A stretch of DNA of 35,978 bases, taken from contig CAOJBM010000008.1 of assembly GCA_948329525.1 (NCBI GenBank), positions 1 through 35,978 of the forward strand. Reading direction: 5' to 3'. Origin of the DNA: an uncultured Mycoplasmatota bacterium. GTDB taxonomy: Bacteria; Bacillota_I; Bacilli_A; RF39; UBA660. The position numbers were made by a program, and so were the translations under genes. The notes beneath the pieces were generated by a model. That model made no database searches. It had not been told where the DNA came from and was given only the letters and a program-made list of their open reading frames with translations. Of the stretch, positions 391 through 35,472 are shown one piece after another. How positions within the stretch are numbered: position 1 is the first letter of the stretch; every line of letters begins with the position of its first letter.

Positions 391-415
391 TAAAAAACTC
401 CTATTTTATAGGAGT
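391..415 (-). terminator. Rho-independent terminator of the tRNA-like unit
   Basis: ACTCCTA (397-403) and TAGGAGT (409-415) form a perfect 7-bp stem with a 5-nt loop. On the minus strand it is followed by six T residues (392-397) and more AT, so it ends minus-strand transcripts. It lies 11 nt beyond the encoded CCA of the tRNA-like gene, a typical tRNA terminator distance. GGAGTAAA (411-418) could alternatively pair with TTTACTCC (588-595). Confidence 0.75.
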
Positions 416-426
416 AAATTACACAT

Positions 427-502
427 TGGTGCCGATTGACTGAGTTTAACAAGTCACCTGATGTAAACAACACATCCGTTCTAACGTTATTACTAAATCG
501 GC
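427..502 (-). tRNA. Degenerate tRNA-Thr-like gene, UGU anticodon, encoded CCA
   Basis: Read on the minus strand from 502 this is exactly 76 nt. It has a perfect 7-bp acceptor stem (GCCGATT/AATCGGC), discriminator A73 and encoded CCA. It also has U8, a G10-C25 pair, A15, G18, A21, a perfect 5-bp anticodon stem with a 7-nt loop, U33, anticodon UGU, variable loop AGGTG, the G53-C61 pair, U54, U55 and A58. G1-C72 and C2-G71 match Firmicute tRNA-Thr, and the start (GCCG), TTAG at 7-10 and AGGT at 44-47 resemble it directly. Defects: D-stem pairs 12:23 and 13:22 are mismatched, G19 and C56 are lost, T-stem pairs 49:65 and 50:64 are mismatched with a wobble at 51:63, and position 37 is U. It has its own promoter and terminator. 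It may be a tRNA pseudogene, a non-ribosomal tRNA or a mimic. Confidence 0.55.
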
Positions 503-507
503 ATTTG

Positions 508-580
508 TAAGGAATTAATAATTCCTAATTAATAGTACCATAATAACAAGTATTTGGCAAATATTATTATTAATTCCTTA
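508..580. repeat. 15-bp perfect inverted repeat bracketing a promoter
   Basis: TAAGGAATTAATAAT (508-522) is the exact reverse complement of 566-580. The 43-bp interior holds both the -35 and the -10 of the tRNA-like unit's promoter. The arrangement could be an operator pair, a transcript hairpin or an invertible segment. The sequence alone does not distinguish these. Confidence 0.6.
532..560 (-). promoter_or_regulatory. Promoter of the tRNA-like unit
   Basis: On the minus strand, TTGCCA (-35, plus coordinates 560-555) is followed by exactly 17 nt and TACTAT (-10, 537-532). TG one base before the -10 makes it an extended -10. The start would fall near 525, giving a leader of about 23 nt before the tRNA-like body at 502. 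A GGAATT/AATTCC hairpin lies in that leader. Confidence 0.6.
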
Positions 581-13386: not shown

Positions 13387-14331
13387 TCAAAACAAATTCT
13401 TAAATACATTTAGTAAGTTTTTTATAGCATCTTTTACTTCTTCAATTGTTAATATACTTTTATCATCTAGAACATATATTTTTTGCATTTTATTATAAGC
13501 ATTAATTAAATCATTATTAAATTCTAATTTCATATATTCAAAATCTACTATCTTTTTATTTTCTTCTATTCCACCTAATCTAGATTTTTCTTCTCTTCTC
13601 TTATATTCAACTAATTTCTTTAACTCTTTCTTATTCTTTAGCAAGTTTTTTATATTATCATTTTTCATCATAATACAAATATCATATAAATGTTTAGATA
13701 CATCTCCATACATTTCTCTTTTATAATAAAATTCTGCTGCAAATATCTTATCGACAAAAATTCTTTCTAGTTTAATAATTTCTATCTCAAACTCAGATAT
13801 ATTATATTTTTCTTTTAAAATAGATTTTTCTTCATCTTTGGCATACTTATATATAATCGGTTCTATAACATAAGTAGCTATTGGTTCAGATACTGTAAAT
13901 GAAGTTGATTCTATTTGTATTCTTTCTGATTTAAAAAGTTCATTTAAGCTAAATAAAGAATCATATTTATAAAATGCTGTAACACTACCTTTTTTATCAA
14001 TAGTTTCTTCACTTACTAACTCTAAATCCTCAATATTATACCCAAGTGCTGATTTTTTTAGTCTTGTCTTATTACTATTATTTGACTCATTATTATTTAC
14101 TTTAACAGTTAAATCAATATCTTCAGAAAATCTATTCATATGATTTAATATTTTATAAACTGCTGTACCACCTTTAAAATAAGCTTGTAATTCCTTTTGT
14201 TTAAATGCCAATTCTTTTAAAACAAGACATACATAATAATCTTTTTCTAAAATATCACTTCTAATACCTGTTCTAGCATTGATATTTAATATTAGTTCTT
14301 CCAATACCTCCTTACTCACTTTCTTCGCCAC
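13387..14331 (-). CDS. AbiEii-type nucleotidyltransferase toxin (pair 1)
   Basis: 314-residue nucleotidyltransferase of the AbiEii/AbiGii family, the toxin of type IV toxin-antitoxin pairs that act in abortive phage infection. The polymerase-beta-type signature is present as EKDYYVCLVLKE (29-40), YFKGGTAVYK (51-60) and RFSEDIDLTV (67-76), giving the Gly-Gly turn and the Asp71-x-Asp73 metal site. The rest is helical, with the usual VEPIIYKYAK and KIFAAEFYYKRE segments. It overlaps the antitoxin gene by 20 bp and is second in the operon. Known members transfer nucleotides to tRNA or other targets; the target here is unknown. Confidence 0.9.
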   Translation of the reverse strand: MAKKVSKEVLEELILNINARTGIRSDILEKDYYVCLVLKELAFKQKELQAYFKGGTAVYKILNHMNRFSEDIDLTVKVNNNESNNSNKTRLKKSALGYNIEDLELVSEETIDKKGSVTAFYKYDSLFSLNELFKSERIQIESTSFTVSEPIATYVIEPIIYKYAKDEEKSILKEKYNISEFEIEIIKLERIFVDKIFAAEFYYKREMYGDVSKHLYDICIMMKNDNIKNLLKNKKELKKLVEYKRREEKSRLGGIEENKKIVDFEYMKLEFNNDLINAYNKMQKIYVLDDKSILTIEEVKDAIKNLLNVFKNLF

Positions 14332-14965
14332 CTAACTCATATAATTTTTTTATTGGTTTTAAATTATTTATTTTATTAGCATATTCAAATATTTTTTCCA
14401 TCTCTAATTCATTATCTTTAATAAATTTATAAATAATTTCTTTTTCATTATTCGTTTCTATTTTAATATTATCTTTATTAATTAATACATCAAAAAGCTG
14501 AAGATACTTATAGTTATCTTCATTAATTTGTAATTTAGGTCTTCTAATAGTAACTCCAAGATTTTTATTTTTATAATCATTAGCATTAGGACACTCATTA
14601 GTAACAATTAACAACTCTTTAGGTATTTGTGTAGTTAAACCTATTTTATTAAATAAATAAGCCCCTGAAATATATCCTTTTATATCATTTTTATTATGCA
14701 TATACTTTTTATCAATAACTTTATTGATATTTAAAGTTTTTTTACCAAAAGTACCTTTTAATGGTTTATAATAAATTCCTTTGACAAATTGGGCAAGTTT
14801 ATTTTCTTTTACTAACCTATTAATATATACGTAGATATTTTTAAATACATTATCAAAATTATCTTGAATATAATTTTTAAAATATTCTTTTATTTCTTCA
14901 ATAAATATTGGTTCATCAAAAGGATACTCATCTATATATTTAACTAAAATATCATTATAATTCAC
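14312..14965 (-). CDS. AbiEi-type antitoxin / DUF6088-like regulator (pair 1)
   Basis: Partner of the adjacent AbiEii gene, 218 residues. The N-terminal 70 residues form a winged helix (IKEYFKNYI, VYINRLVKENKLAQFVKGIYYKP), the DNA-binding part that normally autoregulates the operon. The remainder (SGAYLFNKIGLTTQIPKELLIVTN and a YKYLQLFDVL segment) matches the DUF6088/AbiEi antitoxin fold. I chose the GTG at 14965, which has AGGTGGTG 6 nt upstream; the GTG at 14977 lies inside that ribosome site. It is first in the operon, overlapping the toxin by 20 bp. Confidence 0.85.
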   Translation of the reverse strand: MNYNDILVKYIDEYPFDEPIFIEEIKEYFKNYIQDNFDNVFKNIYVYINRLVKENKLAQFVKGIYYKPLKGTFGKKTLNINKVIDKKYMHNKNDIKGYISGAYLFNKIGLTTQIPKELLIVTNECPNANDYKNKNLGVTIRRPKLQINEDNYKYLQLFDVLINKDNIKIETNNEKEIIYKFIKDNELEMEKIFEYANKINNLKPIKKLYELGGEESE

Positions 14966-15067
14966 ATATATCACCACCTAAATATAGTATTGTTATTATT
15001 TAATTAAAATATATACAATAATTCATTTATTAACAACATTATATGTTATTTTTGATTATATGTCAAT

Positions 15068-27476: not shown

Positions 27477-29164
27477 TGTAACAGTTCAGACTAGAGGATG
27501 AGAAAATCATCTTTTTTCTGTGGAAATGTTGTTCAAACAAAGAAGTTATCCACAAATTTGAGTAAACCTCTTGAAATAATTTAAAAATATGTAATACTTA
27601 TACTAATGAAAGGTGAAAATAAATGGGAGTACACAATAATTATTCCAATAGTATGTATAAACAACTAGAAGAAATGATGATTAAAATTGATAATCTCCTA
27701 GATGAAATAAAACGCCTTAGACTTGAACTCGAAATACAAAAATCATTAAATACAGAAAAGGACAAGCAATTAGAAGAATTAACAAACAAATTAAATCAAG
27801 CACTTGAAGAACTAGATAAAGAAAGAAGTAAAAATAACAAGAATTCTGGTAACTCGAGTAAGCCTTCATCTACCGACATTGCTCCAGTAAAAAAGAAAAG
27901 TCAGGAGCTAATCTATACAATTATCGAGTTAAAAGTGATAAAAAGAAAGGTGGTCAATTCGGTCATATTGGTTCTACATATACAAAAGAAAAATTAGAGA
28001 GTGAGATTAAAGAAAAGAATCTTAAAGTTGTTACAATAACTCATACAATACAGGGGAAAGAAAATCAAGAACCACTAGTAAAATATAGACTGGGTCTTAA
28101 AACAGCAGTAGTAGTCTATAAACATGTTTTTAAATTCTCATCTAAATCTGTTGAAACTTTACCTCGTGAATTTCAAACAGATGTAACCTATGATGTCTCT
28201 ATTAAAACAACGGCACTAAATCTAGACACTTTAAATGTAGTTAGTCTAGATAGACAAACTGACTTTTTCAGTGCAATAACAGATGATTTTTTACACATTG
28301 GAAAAGGAACACTTATGAACTTTAAAAAGGAGTTTAGTCTTAAAGCACAATCTACTTTAGAAAATATAGAGAACAACTTACATAATGGAAAAACAATATT
28401 TACAGATGAGACAAGTTCTAAAAATAATGGCCAAAAAATCTATACTAGAAACTATTCTAATCCAGATAATGTCTTATATAAAATGCATCCAAATAAGAGA
28501 CATGATCCTATTAAAGCTGACGGAATACTGACAAAATATTTAGGTGGAATAATGGGTGACCATGATACAACTCTCTACAAATATGGTACTAAACGATATG
28601 AGTGCAATATTCATGTAGGAAGATACCTGCAAGAAATAATAAAACTTGTTCCAGATGTAAAATGGGTTCATAATATGAAGACTTTGCTTTTTAAAATGAA
28701 AGCCACAAGAGAAGTTGCCATTGAATTTGGATGTACTCATTTTATCCAAGAAAAACTGAATGAGTACAACTTGGAATTTAATGAAGTACTTGAAAGTTCT
28801 TTATTAGAAGATAAGAACATAAAATCGAAAACTTTTAGAGGTAAGGCTGAAAAATTAAGACGTCGACTTTTGAAATATAAGATGAACCGTATTTACTTTA
28901 TCTATGATTTTGAAGTTCCTTTCGATAATAACTTAAGTGAGAGTGATATTAGAATATTTAAAATTAATACAAAAGTAAGTGGTGGTTTTAGAAGTTTAAA
29001 AGGTGCTCAATATTTTGCTGATGCTTTAAGTGTGATTAAAACTGCAAAGAAAAGAAAAATGAATCCTACTAAAGTCATAGAATCCATTTTTAACAATCAA
29101 GCATTATTCTCTTAACGATGAATATTTTCATTGTTCTTTTTCGTGGTTAGTCTGAACTGTTACA
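27477..29164 (+). mobile_element. Complete IS66-family insertion sequence
   Basis: 1688 bp bounded by 17-bp perfect inverted ends: TGTAACAGTTCAGACTA (27477-27493) and its reverse complement (29148-29164). It carries one transposase gene and no TnpA/TnpB accessory genes, as in the ISBst12-type single-ORF branch of IS66. No 8-bp target duplication is apparent (flanks ggattttc and atttgtcc), so it is old, or flank changes followed insertion. It lies upstream of the MATE fusion gene's promoter. Confidence 0.88.
27623..29115 (+). CDS. IS66-family transposase, two frames joined by -1 frameshift
   Basis: Frame 1 (27623-27895) gives the N-terminal leucine-zipper/DUF6444 part (KQLEELTNKLNQALEELDKE, NNKNSGNSSKPSSTD). 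The rest is one frame back, open from about 27895 to 29115 with no stop: SGANLYNYRVKSDKKKGGQF, zinc-binding-like region, then the DDE domain with TIFTDET, GDHDTTLYKYG, NLSESDIR and KVSGGFRSLKGA. At the join, A AAA AAG (27889-27895) is in exact zero-frame phase for -1 slippage, giving VKKEKSGAN. About 497 residues if joined. Either programmed frameshifting or a one-base loss in the A run fits; frame 1 otherwise continues to a stop at 27995-27997. AAAGGTGA precedes the ATG. Confidence 0.82.
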
Positions 29165-32037: not shown

Positions 32038-33918
32038 TTAAACATTAATCAATGTTTTTTCTTTTAGTTCATCGTTTGTTATTGAACAATTTGCATCTTC
32101 TTTTAAACTATTAAGTAAATTTGTAAAATTATCTAAAGTTTCTTGCTCAAATTCCATATTTCCATAATTGTCATAAATTTCTTTATAATAAATTGTACTT
32201 TTTTTGGGAATATATTTTTCTCTATCATTATGTGAAAACAAATCTTCTAATAAACAATCATCTGTATTTTCATTATTTAAGAAATATGTCTTTACTTTAT
32301 TAATGATGGTATTTGTATCATCACCTTCAGAAATAGCTGATATTACTTTTCTTCCTGCTTTATCGTTATCCACAAGTGTATATACATCATATCCTAAACC
32401 AAATAAGTAGCCAAACATGAACGACACTTTCTCACTACCATAGCAAGGTACAAAATGTGTATCAAGAAATTTTCTTGTTAATTTTAGTTTTTTTATGAAA
32501 GCAGTTAAAACGTATACATCCTGAATTCCTTCTACAACTATGATTTTACTTTTCTCATCAATAATAAGATTATTAGAAAAATTTAATTCTAATGAAGTAA
32601 GTAGTGGAGTAATTGCATCAACATCTTTTAAACCTTTTTTTTGAATTGCATATTCTCTTGCATCGTTATAAATATTAGTTTGATCATCTTTCTCAATAAT
32701 TCTTATTGAAAAAGTATTTTCACTATCAATCATATAAGGGCTATGTGTAGTATATATAATTTGCATATCTTTAAATTCTGTTTCAAAAATTCTATATAAT
32801 AAATCTTTTTGTGCACCAGCATGTAAATATAAATTTGGCTCATCAATTAATAAAATATGATTTTCATTATGGTTGTTTTCCTCTAAATAATCATATAAAG
32901 TTAAATATATAGATAAATACCATCTAAACCCATCACTTCTTTCACTTATATTTATTGCATTATTTTTGCTAGTTTTATCATTTGTTAAGAAATATATTTC
33001 ATTAGTTCCAGTGGAAATTCTTAACTTTAATTTAAAATCATTATCTGTTTGTTGAAACACTTCCCTAAATTTATTTGTAACTACATCAATGTACTGACTT
33101 TCAATATCAGAAATTAATACTTCATCTTTTTCTTTAACAGCTTCAATTAAATCATCTTCATCTATGTTGCCAATTCTCAAAATATTTTTAGCTTGAATAT
33201 TATTCTCTAAATCATCTAGAATTATTTTATCACTCAAGACATCTCTAAATGAGTTAAAATATATAAACTTATATTTTGGCAAAAGATTTATCCAATGGTT
33301 TTTAATAATTTCATTTGCTATATCAGTAAGAGTTATTTTTAGTTCTTCAGGAAATTCATTATTCTCTAAATTATCTAGAATATGTTTTTTTAGATTTTCT
33401 TCTGAATCTTCTTTTAATAAATCTTCAAAAAATTGAATTTGATTTTCATTTAATGTATTTTTATTGTTTTTTTGTATTTTCTTTATATCACTTAGTATTC
33501 TTTCAAAAAATATAGAAGTTTCGATATTTACTAAATTATTTTCTTTATCAATGTAATATAGTGAAAAATATTTTGTATTATCTTCATCTCTTACTGTTAT
33601 TGTAAAGTATAGATGCTTATATGTTTCTGGTAATTTATAAAAAAGATACTTTGCATCTTGCGAATATTTTTTATTGATTTCTTTAATTTGTGCTTGTGAA
33701 ATTCTAAATGTTCCTGTGATTTCGGAAGGCTTATTCCTTAAACTAGAGTTTTTTTCCTTTTTGGTTATTTTTTCTCCATTTAGTTTTCTAATTGCTTTTA
33801 ATATTGTTGACTTTCCAGATTCATTTTTTCCAATTATTGATGTTATCCCATTATTTATTTTAATAACTTCTTCATCTTTTATTGAAAGAAAATTTTTAAT
33901 TTTGACCTTAAGTAGCAT
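32038..33918 (-). CDS. OLD-family ATPase with TOPRIM nuclease domain
   Basis: 626-residue overcoming-lysogenization-defect family protein. The N-terminal ABC/SMC-type ATPase has Walker A GKNESGKST (about 30-38), a signature-like NISERSDGFRWYLSI, Walker B HILLIDEPNLYLH (about 354-366) and switch His in YTTHSPYM. The C-terminal TOPRIM domain has IIVVEGIQDVY (catalytic Glu about 463) and TLVDNDKAGRK (metal Asp pair about 516-518). OLD proteins are DNA nucleases used in phage exclusion; GajA of Gabija is one subtype, but no UvrD-like partner is present. ATG at 33918 has AGGAGTG 6 nt upstream; a GTG at 33927 lies in that site. It is divergent from the second AbiE pair and upstream of the kinase-like gene. 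Confidence 0.92.
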   Translation of the reverse strand: MLLKVKIKNFLSIKDEEVIKINNGITSIIGKNESGKSTILKAIRKLNGEKITKKEKNSSLRNKPSEITGTFRISQAQIKEINKKYSQDAKYLFYKLPETYKHLYFTITVRDEDNTKYFSLYYIDKENNLVNIETSIFFERILSDIKKIQKNNKNTLNENQIQFFEDLLKEDSEENLKKHILDNLENNEFPEELKITLTDIANEIIKNHWINLLPKYKFIYFNSFRDVLSDKIILDDLENNIQAKNILRIGNIDEDDLIEAVKEKDEVLISDIESQYIDVVTNKFREVFQQTDNDFKLKLRISTGTNEIYFLTNDKTSKNNAINISERSDGFRWYLSIYLTLYDYLEENNHNENHILLIDEPNLYLHAGAQKDLLYRIFETEFKDMQIIYTTHSPYMIDSENTFSIRIIEKDDQTNIYNDAREYAIQKKGLKDVDAITPLLTSLELNFSNNLIIDEKSKIIVVEGIQDVYVLTAFIKKLKLTRKFLDTHFVPCYGSEKVSFMFGYLFGLGYDVYTLVDNDKAGRKVISAISEGDDTNTIINKVKTYFLNNENTDDCLLEDLFSHNDREKYIPKKSTIYYKEIYDNYGNMEFEQETLDNFTNLLNSLKEDANCSITNDELKEKTLINV

Positions 33919-33939
33919 GTAACTCACTCCTTTTCATTT

Positions 33940-34027: not shown

Positions 34028-34621
34028 ATGAATAACGAAGAAAAAATTTTAAATGAAATGAAAAAAAATAATGGAATGATAACAACAAAAGAAGTAGAAC
34101 GAATGGGTATTGCTAGGAAAACTCTAACAAGAATGCTAGAAAAAGGTTTAATCGAAAGAGAAAATCAAGGATTATATGTTTTGCCAAATTCTTGGGGTGA
34201 TGAATATTATAATTTAATTTTTTCAAGTAAGAATGCTATATTTTCTCATGCTACTGCTCTTTTTCTACATGGATTGTCTGAAAGAGTTCCATTAATATAT
34301 GAAATTACAGTTGCGAATGGTTATAATGCAAGTTTAAAAAACAGAGAAAATGTTGAGTTATATTCTGTCACTAAAGAAATATTTGAGCTTGGAAAAACTG
34401 AAATTGAAAGTCCGCAAGGAAAAATTATTCCAGTTTATGATATAGAAAGATGTTTATGTGATGTTATAAAATATAAAGATAAGCAGGATATAGAAATCAT
34501 AAAATATGCTTTAAAGACCTATGTTAAATCATCAAAAAAAGATATTTATAAATTAATGGAATATGCTAAAAAATTAAAAGTGGAAGAGGAAATAAATTCA
34601 TATTTAGAGGTTCTATTATGA
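34028..34621 (+). CDS. AbiEi-type antitoxin (pair 2)
   Basis: 197-residue winged-helix protein of the type IV AbiEi antitoxin family. The N-terminal domain is ILNEMKKNNGMITTKEVERM, then GIARKTLTRMLEKGLIERE and a wing ending GLYVLP. It is followed by the AbiEi_4 core (IFSHATALFLHGLSERVP, then IPVYDIERCLCDVIKYKD and YALKTYVKS). It would bind and repress its own promoter and counter the toxin. The ATG follows AAAGGGG. Its stop overlaps the toxin's start as ATGA, so the two are translationally coupled. It is unrelated in sequence detail to the first AbiEi in the window. Confidence 0.92.
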   Translation: MNNEEKILNEMKKNNGMITTKEVERMGIARKTLTRMLEKGLIERENQGLYVLPNSWGDEYYNLIFSSKNAIFSHATALFLHGLSERVPLIYEITVANGYNASLKNRENVELYSVTKEIFELGKTEIESPQGKIIPVYDIERCLCDVIKYKDKQDIEIIKYALKTYVKSSKKDIYKLMEYAKKLKVEEEINSYLEVLL

Positions 34622-35472
34622 TGAATGCTGAAAGTTTAAAATATAGAATAAAAATAAAATCAAAAGAAACAGATGTATCTCCACAAGAATTAATGCAGAT
34701 GTATTTTTTTGAAAGATTACTATACAGAGTTTCGGTTAGTGAATACAAAGATAATTTTATTTTAAAAGGCGGACTTCTTTTAGCAGCTATTATTGGGGAT
34801 GATAGGAGAACCACTCAAGATATGGATACAATGTTAAAAGGAATTGAACTTTCTAGTAAAGAATTACTAAGAGTAATAAATAGTATTCTCTGTATAGATT
34901 GTAATGATAATATAAGTTTTAAAATTTCTAAAATTGAGGATATAAGGCTACAAGATATCTATGGAGGCTTAAAAGTATACTTAGAGGGAATTAAAGAAGG
35001 AATAAAAGTTAATCTTACCATTGATATAACGGTTGGTGATCCTATTACACCAAGAGAAATAACATTTAAATATAAAAGTATGTTTGATGATGAATATATC
35101 AAAATTATGGCTTTTACAAAAGAAACAATTATTGCAGAAAAATTTGAAACATTACTTGCGAATACAGTAGGAAATACTAGAGCAAAAGATTTTTATGATC
35201 TTTATATCTTACTAAGCGAATATTATAATGAATTAAATGAACAAAACTTAGTAGAAGCAATTAATAGAACTTTAAAAAGAAGAGATACTCTTCATTTATT
35301 AGGAGAAGTTAATAACTTGTTCGAAATTATAAAATCTAGTGAGAGATTAAGAAATAATTGGATTAAATACAAAAATAGATATCCATTTGCTAAAAATATA
35401 AATTATGATGATATAATGGAAAAACTTGAAGTAGTTATTAATTTATTAGAAAAAGAATCGGTATCTGTTTAG
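34618..35472 (+). CDS. AbiEii-type nucleotidyltransferase toxin (pair 2)
   Basis: 284-residue AbiEii/AbiGii nucleotidyltransferase. The signature is NFILKGGLLLAAIIG (46-60) and RRTTQDMDTMLKG (63-75), with the Gly-Gly turn and Asp68-x-Asp70. TKETIIAEKFETLLA and RAKDFYDLYILLSEYYN are the conserved C-terminal helices of the family. It would modify RNA or protein targets with nucleotides when the antitoxin is lost. ATG overlaps the antitoxin stop; GAGG lies upstream. Gene order antitoxin then toxin is as in pair 1. A further gene follows 18 nt later. Confidence 0.92.
   Translation: MMNAESLKYRIKIKSKETDVSPQELMQMYFFERLLYRVSVSEYKDNFILKGGLLLAAIIGDDRRTTQDMDTMLKGIELSSKELLRVINSILCIDCNDNISFKISKIEDIRLQDIYGGLKVYLEGIKEGIKVNLTIDITVGDPITPREITFKYKSMFDDEYIKIMAFTKETIIAEKFETLLANTVGNTRAKDFYDLYILLSEYYNELNEQNLVEAINRTLKRRDTLHLLGEVNNLFEIIKSSERLRNNWIKYKNRYPFAKNINYDDIMEKLEVVINLLEKESVSV

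Follow-up and report, generated by a model that had tools for sequence, protein, structure and literature searches.

A conserved, non-canonical threonine tRNA gene with a bulged T-stem and its association with a clade of FemX-type transferases in uncultured Bacilli

Introduction

In Staphylococcus aureus a dedicated tRNA-Gly with altered positions 18-19 feeds the FemXAB transferases (PMC4052509). The usual donors of Fem enzymes are glycine, alanine and serine, and the S. aureus tRNA-Gly is an example of dedication (PMC9976931), while it is unclear in most cases how charged tRNAs reach cell-wall enzymes instead of the ribosome (PMC4052509). In the literature searched we found no threonine tRNA reserved for Fem enzymes. 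Two other described systems are the Bacillus cereus tRNAOther, a pseudo-tRNA for which effects on T-boxes and the cell wall are described (PMC3399842), and the selC-type tRNA-Cys, whose T-stem has a bulge at 51a (PMC7609411).

Here we analyse a tRNA-like gene, the element, located in the first 35,978 bases (contig C8; the whole stretch is called the window) of the draft genome G000, a 1.79-Mb assembly that is 90% complete. The element resembles the staphylococcal tRNA-Gly as an extra isoacceptor beside ordinary ones, in having a candidate Fem-type partner and in its presumed escape from EF-Tu (PMC4052509). The resemblance at positions 18-19 is partial, with G18 kept and only G19 lost in the element. 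It differs in being a threonine tRNA and in having mostly lost C56. The T-stem of the staphylococcal tRNA-Gly contains the weak pairs A49-U65 and A51-U63, whereas that of the element is stable with an inserted U, its order being G-C, A-U or G-Y, C-G, U-A, bulge and G-C. The preliminary description had compared the two on the strength of a weak T-stem; since the stem of the element is fully paired around a bulged U, that comparison was abandoned and the staphylococcal parallel now rests on the loss of G19, the redundancy with ordinary tRNA-Thr and the co-inheritance with a Fem-type transferase.

With tRNAOther the element would share the state of a tRNA-like gene outside translation and a link to the cell wall (PMC3399842). 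The B. cereus gene differs in that it has a Trp anticodon, is poorly charged, occupies a genomic island site and is thought to act via gene regulation. We know of no Fem association of tRNAOther. The selC-type tRNA-Cys and a minor bacterial tRNA-Sec likewise have one unpaired T-stem nucleotide near position 51 (PMC7609411), although there the fold is of the 8/4 type and the bulged base is an A, as against 7/5 and a U in the element. As in ordinary bacterial tRNAs, there are a 7-bp acceptor stem, a 5-bp anticodon stem, a 7-nt anticodon loop with U33 and a CCA end; unlike them, the element is without the G18-G19/U55-C56 elbow contacts and is missed by ARAGORN and Rfam.

Results

The element and its signals in the window

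The 76-nt tRNA body, including an encoded CCA, lies at positions 427..502 on the minus strand, as indicated by the covariance models R1, R2 and R3 and by covariation; tRNA position p corresponds to window coordinate 503-p. The minus strand sequence from 502 to 427 is GCCGATTTAGTAATAACGTTAGAACGGATGTGTTGTTTACATCAGGTGACTTGTTAAACTCAGTCAATCGGCACCA. The tRNA-like gene with cloverleaf features proposed in the preliminary description was read again from the same residues: a 7-bp acceptor stem, a 5-bp anticodon stem, the anticodon UGU and the terminal CCA, together with U8, G18, U33, U37, G53-C61, U54-U55 and A58. The absence of C56 was likewise recovered in the window, while U37, although present, turned out not to be diagnostic as the relatives have U or A at this position.

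The anticodon (positions 34-36) lies at 467..469 on the minus strand and is replaced by CGU in two relatives (alignment A4). The D-arm, GUNNUARCGYUARAAC (478..493, minus), has two certain stem pairs, a retained G18 and a near-invariant loop in which G19 is replaced by U, or by C in one relative of the same alignment. The T-arm, GRCU-U-G-UUNAAYU-C-AGYC (438..455, minus), has five paired positions, has lost C56 and contains a bulged U at position 52 (window 451).

A sequence match to a sigma-70-type promoter, TTGCCA-N17-TG-TACTAT, was identified at 532..560 on the minus strand, with the -35 hexamer TTGCCA at 560-555 and an extended -10 box, TG-G-TACTAT, ending at 532; promoter-like matches as such were not more frequent than in shuffled sequences. 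An intrinsic terminator with an 8-bp stem, a 3-nt loop and a T-run is located at 397..415 on the minus strand, one terminator having been found against 0.1 expected by chance. Both signals, reported earlier as intact, are thus present (560-532 and 415-397). Between promoter and tRNA, folding predicted a 5' leader hairpin, GGAATTATTAATTCC (511..525, minus), and several relatives have short hairpins of differing sequence at the leader position, such as GTACTTGAAAAAGTAC.

A perfect 15-nt inverted repeat surrounds the promoter (window 508-522 and 566-580), with one arm overlapping the leader hairpin; it is possibly an operator, or a coincidence. The element is single copy in its own genome, and a mobile-element or repeat origin was rejected on that ground.

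ARAGORN called 0 tRNA genes on the window element, and Rfam at the gathering score called no tRNA; at a loose Rfam threshold a weak match to the SpF41 sRNA (E 1.1) appeared and was rejected as chance. Folding of the isolated window sequence indicated a mild stability (z -1.7) and a minimum-energy structure different from the cloverleaf, so that the case for the cloverleaf rests on comparison and covariation and not on folding. The minimum-energy structure of the copy in genome G175 is a cloverleaf containing exactly the bulged-U T-arm.

Covariation and the register of the T-arm

Alignment of the 11 distinct element sequences revealed that 99.5% of the helix cells of the cloverleaf were paired and that nine pairs had changed on both sides in a compensatory manner. 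None of 500 shuffles reached the observed pairing, and six slid versions of the structure also fell far short. The acceptor cells were 100% paired and those of the anticodon stem 98.2%, and covariation was found at acceptor pairs 5-7 and at all five pairs of the anticodon stem. Only two pairs of the D-stem are certain.

The preliminary description had placed mismatches at 49:65 and 50:64 of the T-stem, which proved to be a one-base register error: in that register the stem was 65% paired over eight sequences and pair 50:64 never formed. When positions 48-51 were paired with 62-65 and U52 was left as a bulge, giving G48-C65, 49-64, C50-G63, U51-A62, bulged U52 and G53-C61, the T-stem was 100% paired in the 11 sequences, with pair 49:64 being A-U in eight, G-U in two and G-C in one. 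Hardly any variation occurs in the D-loop (UARCGYUARAAC), the bulge and the T-loop, in contrast to the acceptor and anticodon stems, which drift through compensatory changes. None of the 11 sequences retains G19 (U, and C in one), and C56 is kept in only one.

Threonine identity and the ordinary tRNA-Thr genes

The determinants of bacterial tRNA-Thr are G1-C72, C2-G71, G4-C69, G5-C68 and G34-G35-U36 (PMC9976931). Among these, G1-C72, C2-G71, G4-C69, G35 and U36 were invariant in 11/11 elements, while G5-C68 and G34 were not kept, the anticodons of the elements being UGU or CGU. A normal tRNA-Thr(UGU), which the preliminary description had suggested looking for, was found elsewhere in the genome together with an ordinary tRNA-Thr(CGU). 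Neither tRNA-Thr(GGU) nor several other tRNAs were found in this assembly, and these absences are probably assembly gaps.

The tRNA-Thr(GGU) genes of the same family gave the best-scoring ordinary matches of the element models. They share a short variable loop with the element and often have the T-stem GACUG/CAGUC, which in several genomes equals the element stem minus the extra U; they differ in having a canonical elbow, a GGU anticodon and no bulge, and are recognised by ARAGORN. The T-arm of the element therefore looks like a tRNA-Thr(GGU) stem with one inserted U, and we infer from this resemblance that the element may descend from such a tRNA.

Distribution across genomes

A BLAST search with the unit retrieved a 92% identical copy from the same genus, alignable across the whole unit including promoter and terminator, and a copy of the body at 79% identity from another genus. 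A first covariance model was built from the window element and these two copies. Applied to 386 genomes of the family, it detected the element in eight, with scores of 81-108 bits, and ordinary tRNA-Thr did not exceed 59 bits, leaving a clean gap. Matches of 71-72% identity in genomes G008, G022 and G029 were ordinary tRNA-Thr(GGU) and were discarded. A scan of genus g33 detected the element in 8/15 genomes, which brought the total to 12 genomes and 11 distinct sequences in four genera (g1, g33, g8 and g13), the carriers being uncultured gut-type Bacilli. The odd T-arm is conserved among these relatives.

Since R3 was built with the window's genus left out, circularity was removed; under this model the window element scored 96.2 bits (E 3e-24) and ordinary tRNA-Thr 36-63 bits. 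When 84,980 species genomes were scanned by pattern, no others appeared outside the Bacilli apart from one chance archaeal match, which failed the covariance model and was rejected, as were 22 pattern matches in viral contigs, all of which failed it. Because filtering in the large scans was strict and few candidates were scored in each genome, divergent members may have escaped detection.

A simple scan detected promoter-like sites with a -10-like box and terminator-like sites at most of the other element loci. In G175 these signals were weak, and the element lies 10 nt after an ordinary tRNA-Thr(CGU). No gene neighbour of the element was common to different genera, while the element was often near tRNA-Thr(CGU) in g33 and g8. 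CCA is encoded in all copies but that of G001, which has CTA instead; this copy (L058 1501-1576, minus) ends in ACTA, so its CCA would have to be attached after processing.

Association with a FemX clade

Because a dedicated tRNA-Gly feeds FemXAB in S. aureus (PMC4052509), we asked whether Fem/MurM transferases follow the element. FemAB proteins were present in 23/23 genomes tested, and their presence alone was therefore rejected as a separator of carriers. The phylogenetic tree showed that each of the 12 carriers holds exactly one FemX from a single clade, G856 being the only non-carrier with such a protein among the 23 genomes. The clade was widened by searching the 386 genomes with one clade member and adding the matches, and the resulting 20 members (support 1.0 in FastTree, SH-aLRT 99 in IQ-TREE) came from the 12 carriers, G856, four g119 genomes and three g69 genomes. 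The carrier state required 3 changes on the FemX tree against 10.9 for shuffles. Among the 386 family genomes the tRNA was found in 8/15 with a clade FemX and in 0/371 others (Fisher p 6e-13, relatedness being ignored).

Five g33 genomes (G861-G865), in which tRNA-Thr(CGU) was found and tmRNA was found in most, gave no element, and their FemX grouped with g134 outside the clade; other FemAB paralogues placed at least G861, G862 and G865 inside g33. On these trees and searches, g33 is a case of coupled loss of two unlinked genes, the tRNA and the clade FemX. Similarly, G175 in g8 and G179 in g13 have both the tRNA and a clade FemX while their sampled relatives have neither. The link between tRNA and FemX is purely phylogenetic, with about three independent contrasts behind it.

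In G856 no match was found to the locus that holds tmRNA, tRNA-Thr(CGU) and the element in its near relatives, and the missing element is likely an assembly gap. The seven clade-FemX genomes of g119 and g69 gave no bulged tRNA under a lax search, so that this tRNA is no general requirement of the clade. The association is strictly one-way: the tRNA occurs only with the FemX clade, and the clade also occurs without the tRNA.

The clade FemX of the genome analysed here is encoded on contig C13 (1363-2562), and the element and femX are not adjacent. The clade FemX scored above the cut-off for PF02388, and both its sequence and its fold matched the PDB entries 6snr and 1lrz, with E values of 4e-26 against FemA and 2e-24 against S. 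aureus FemX. The helical arm of the clade proteins is several residues shorter than in all 24 outsiders. The helical arm of FemX has been proposed to contact the tRNA. The motif YT(G/F)xVNR has mostly Gly in the 20-member clade and Phe in 21/24 outsiders; the arm and motif differences lie at FemX alignment columns 271-299 and 353. The shortened arm and the Gly are possibly tied to the choice of donor.

One g119 genome with a FemX of the same clade, G241, has an odd tRNA-Thr(UGU) (L246 1501-1575, minus) without G18G19 (no GG in the D-loop), with the T-loop UGCAAUU and a weak, G-U-rich T-stem; its anticodon loop, AUUGUAU, occurs also in some elements. In this one genome it may replace the bulged tRNA.

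Discussion

With a probability of roughly two in three, we consider the element to be a dedicated non-ribosomal Thr-tRNA for Fem-type transfer, a counterpart of the cell-wall tRNA-Gly of staphylococci. In this reading we infer the charging, the escape from EF-Tu and the use by FemX, and likewise the acceptor. After transcription from its own promoter and processing, the tRNA would receive threonine from the ordinary ThrRS, since the identity pairs for threonine and G35-U36 are preserved. Its altered elbow (U19, no C56) and the bulge in its T-stem would bar it from EF-Tu and the ribosome, and one FemX-type transferase, that on C13, would take the Thr-tRNA and add threonine to a cell-wall precursor, which is probably the acceptor judging by the enzyme family. 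On balance we lean towards regarding the elements as an undescribed family of dedicated threonine tRNAs, with a bulged T-stem and a rewired elbow, that co-evolved with the FemX clade in uncultured Bacilli.

It is unlikely that the element is a translating, structurally odd tRNA-Thr(UGU/CGU) serving as an extra decoder of ACA and ACG that tolerates an unusual elbow. Its anticodon always reads threonine codons, the anticodon stem is well paired and every copy except one encodes CCA, the selC-type tRNA-Cys also has a bulge at 51a (PMC7609411), and the assembly gave no tRNA-Thr(GGU); against this, ordinary tRNA-Thr(UGU) and (CGU) are already present, an almost universal contact of the elbow disappears when G19 and C56 are both lost, relatives of the same genus manage without the element, and codon need leaves the link to one FemX clade unexplained. 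Rather improbable, too, is a tRNA-derived regulatory RNA, acting on the T-box of a threonine gene or as a ThrRS decoy, with the FemX link due to common descent. The T-box and cell-wall effects of B. cereus tRNAOther are a precedent (PMC3399842) and the element has its own promoter and terminator, but charging is suggested by an acceptor stem, a CCA end and a threonine identity that are all intact, and the coupled loss with FemX would be unexplained.

A dedicated non-ribosomal Thr-tRNA could also serve a different enzyme that depends on aminoacyl-tRNA and co-varies with the FemX clade, as a phylogenetic association cannot single out the enzyme; we regard this as very improbable given that dedicated tRNAs are classically used by Fem enzymes and that the FemX clade itself differs in its helical arm. 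The decaying pseudogene offered in the preliminary description next to a non-ribosomal tRNA can be set aside, for although ARAGORN and Rfam do not recognise the element and the G001 copy has CTA for CCA, the element is conserved, with near-invariant odd loops and compensatory changes in nine pairs, and most loci have sites resembling a promoter and a terminator, all of which supports the non-ribosomal option.

If the element is indeed a dedicated Thr-tRNA for Fem-type transfer, private cell-wall tRNAs would extend beyond glycine and the staphylococci, and a natural pair of tRNA and transferase would be kept and lost together in related species. The T-stem bulge and the broken elbow contact would be a candidate structural cause of diversion from the ribosome. 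As tRNA finders overlook such genes, dedicated tRNAs may outnumber the annotated ones; the GUGC-loop tRNA of G241 and other odd forms of tRNA-Thr perhaps have the same role in a sister genus.

The window further contains two AbiE-type toxin-antitoxin-like pairs, at 13387-14977 (minus) and 34028-35472 (plus), which comprise AbiEii with DUF6088 and AbiEi_4 with AbiEii. An OLD-like AAA ATPase with a TOPRIM domain, a candidate defence nuclease, lies at 32038-33927 (minus), and an IS66-type transposase sequence at 27623-29115 (plus) is split across two reading frames.
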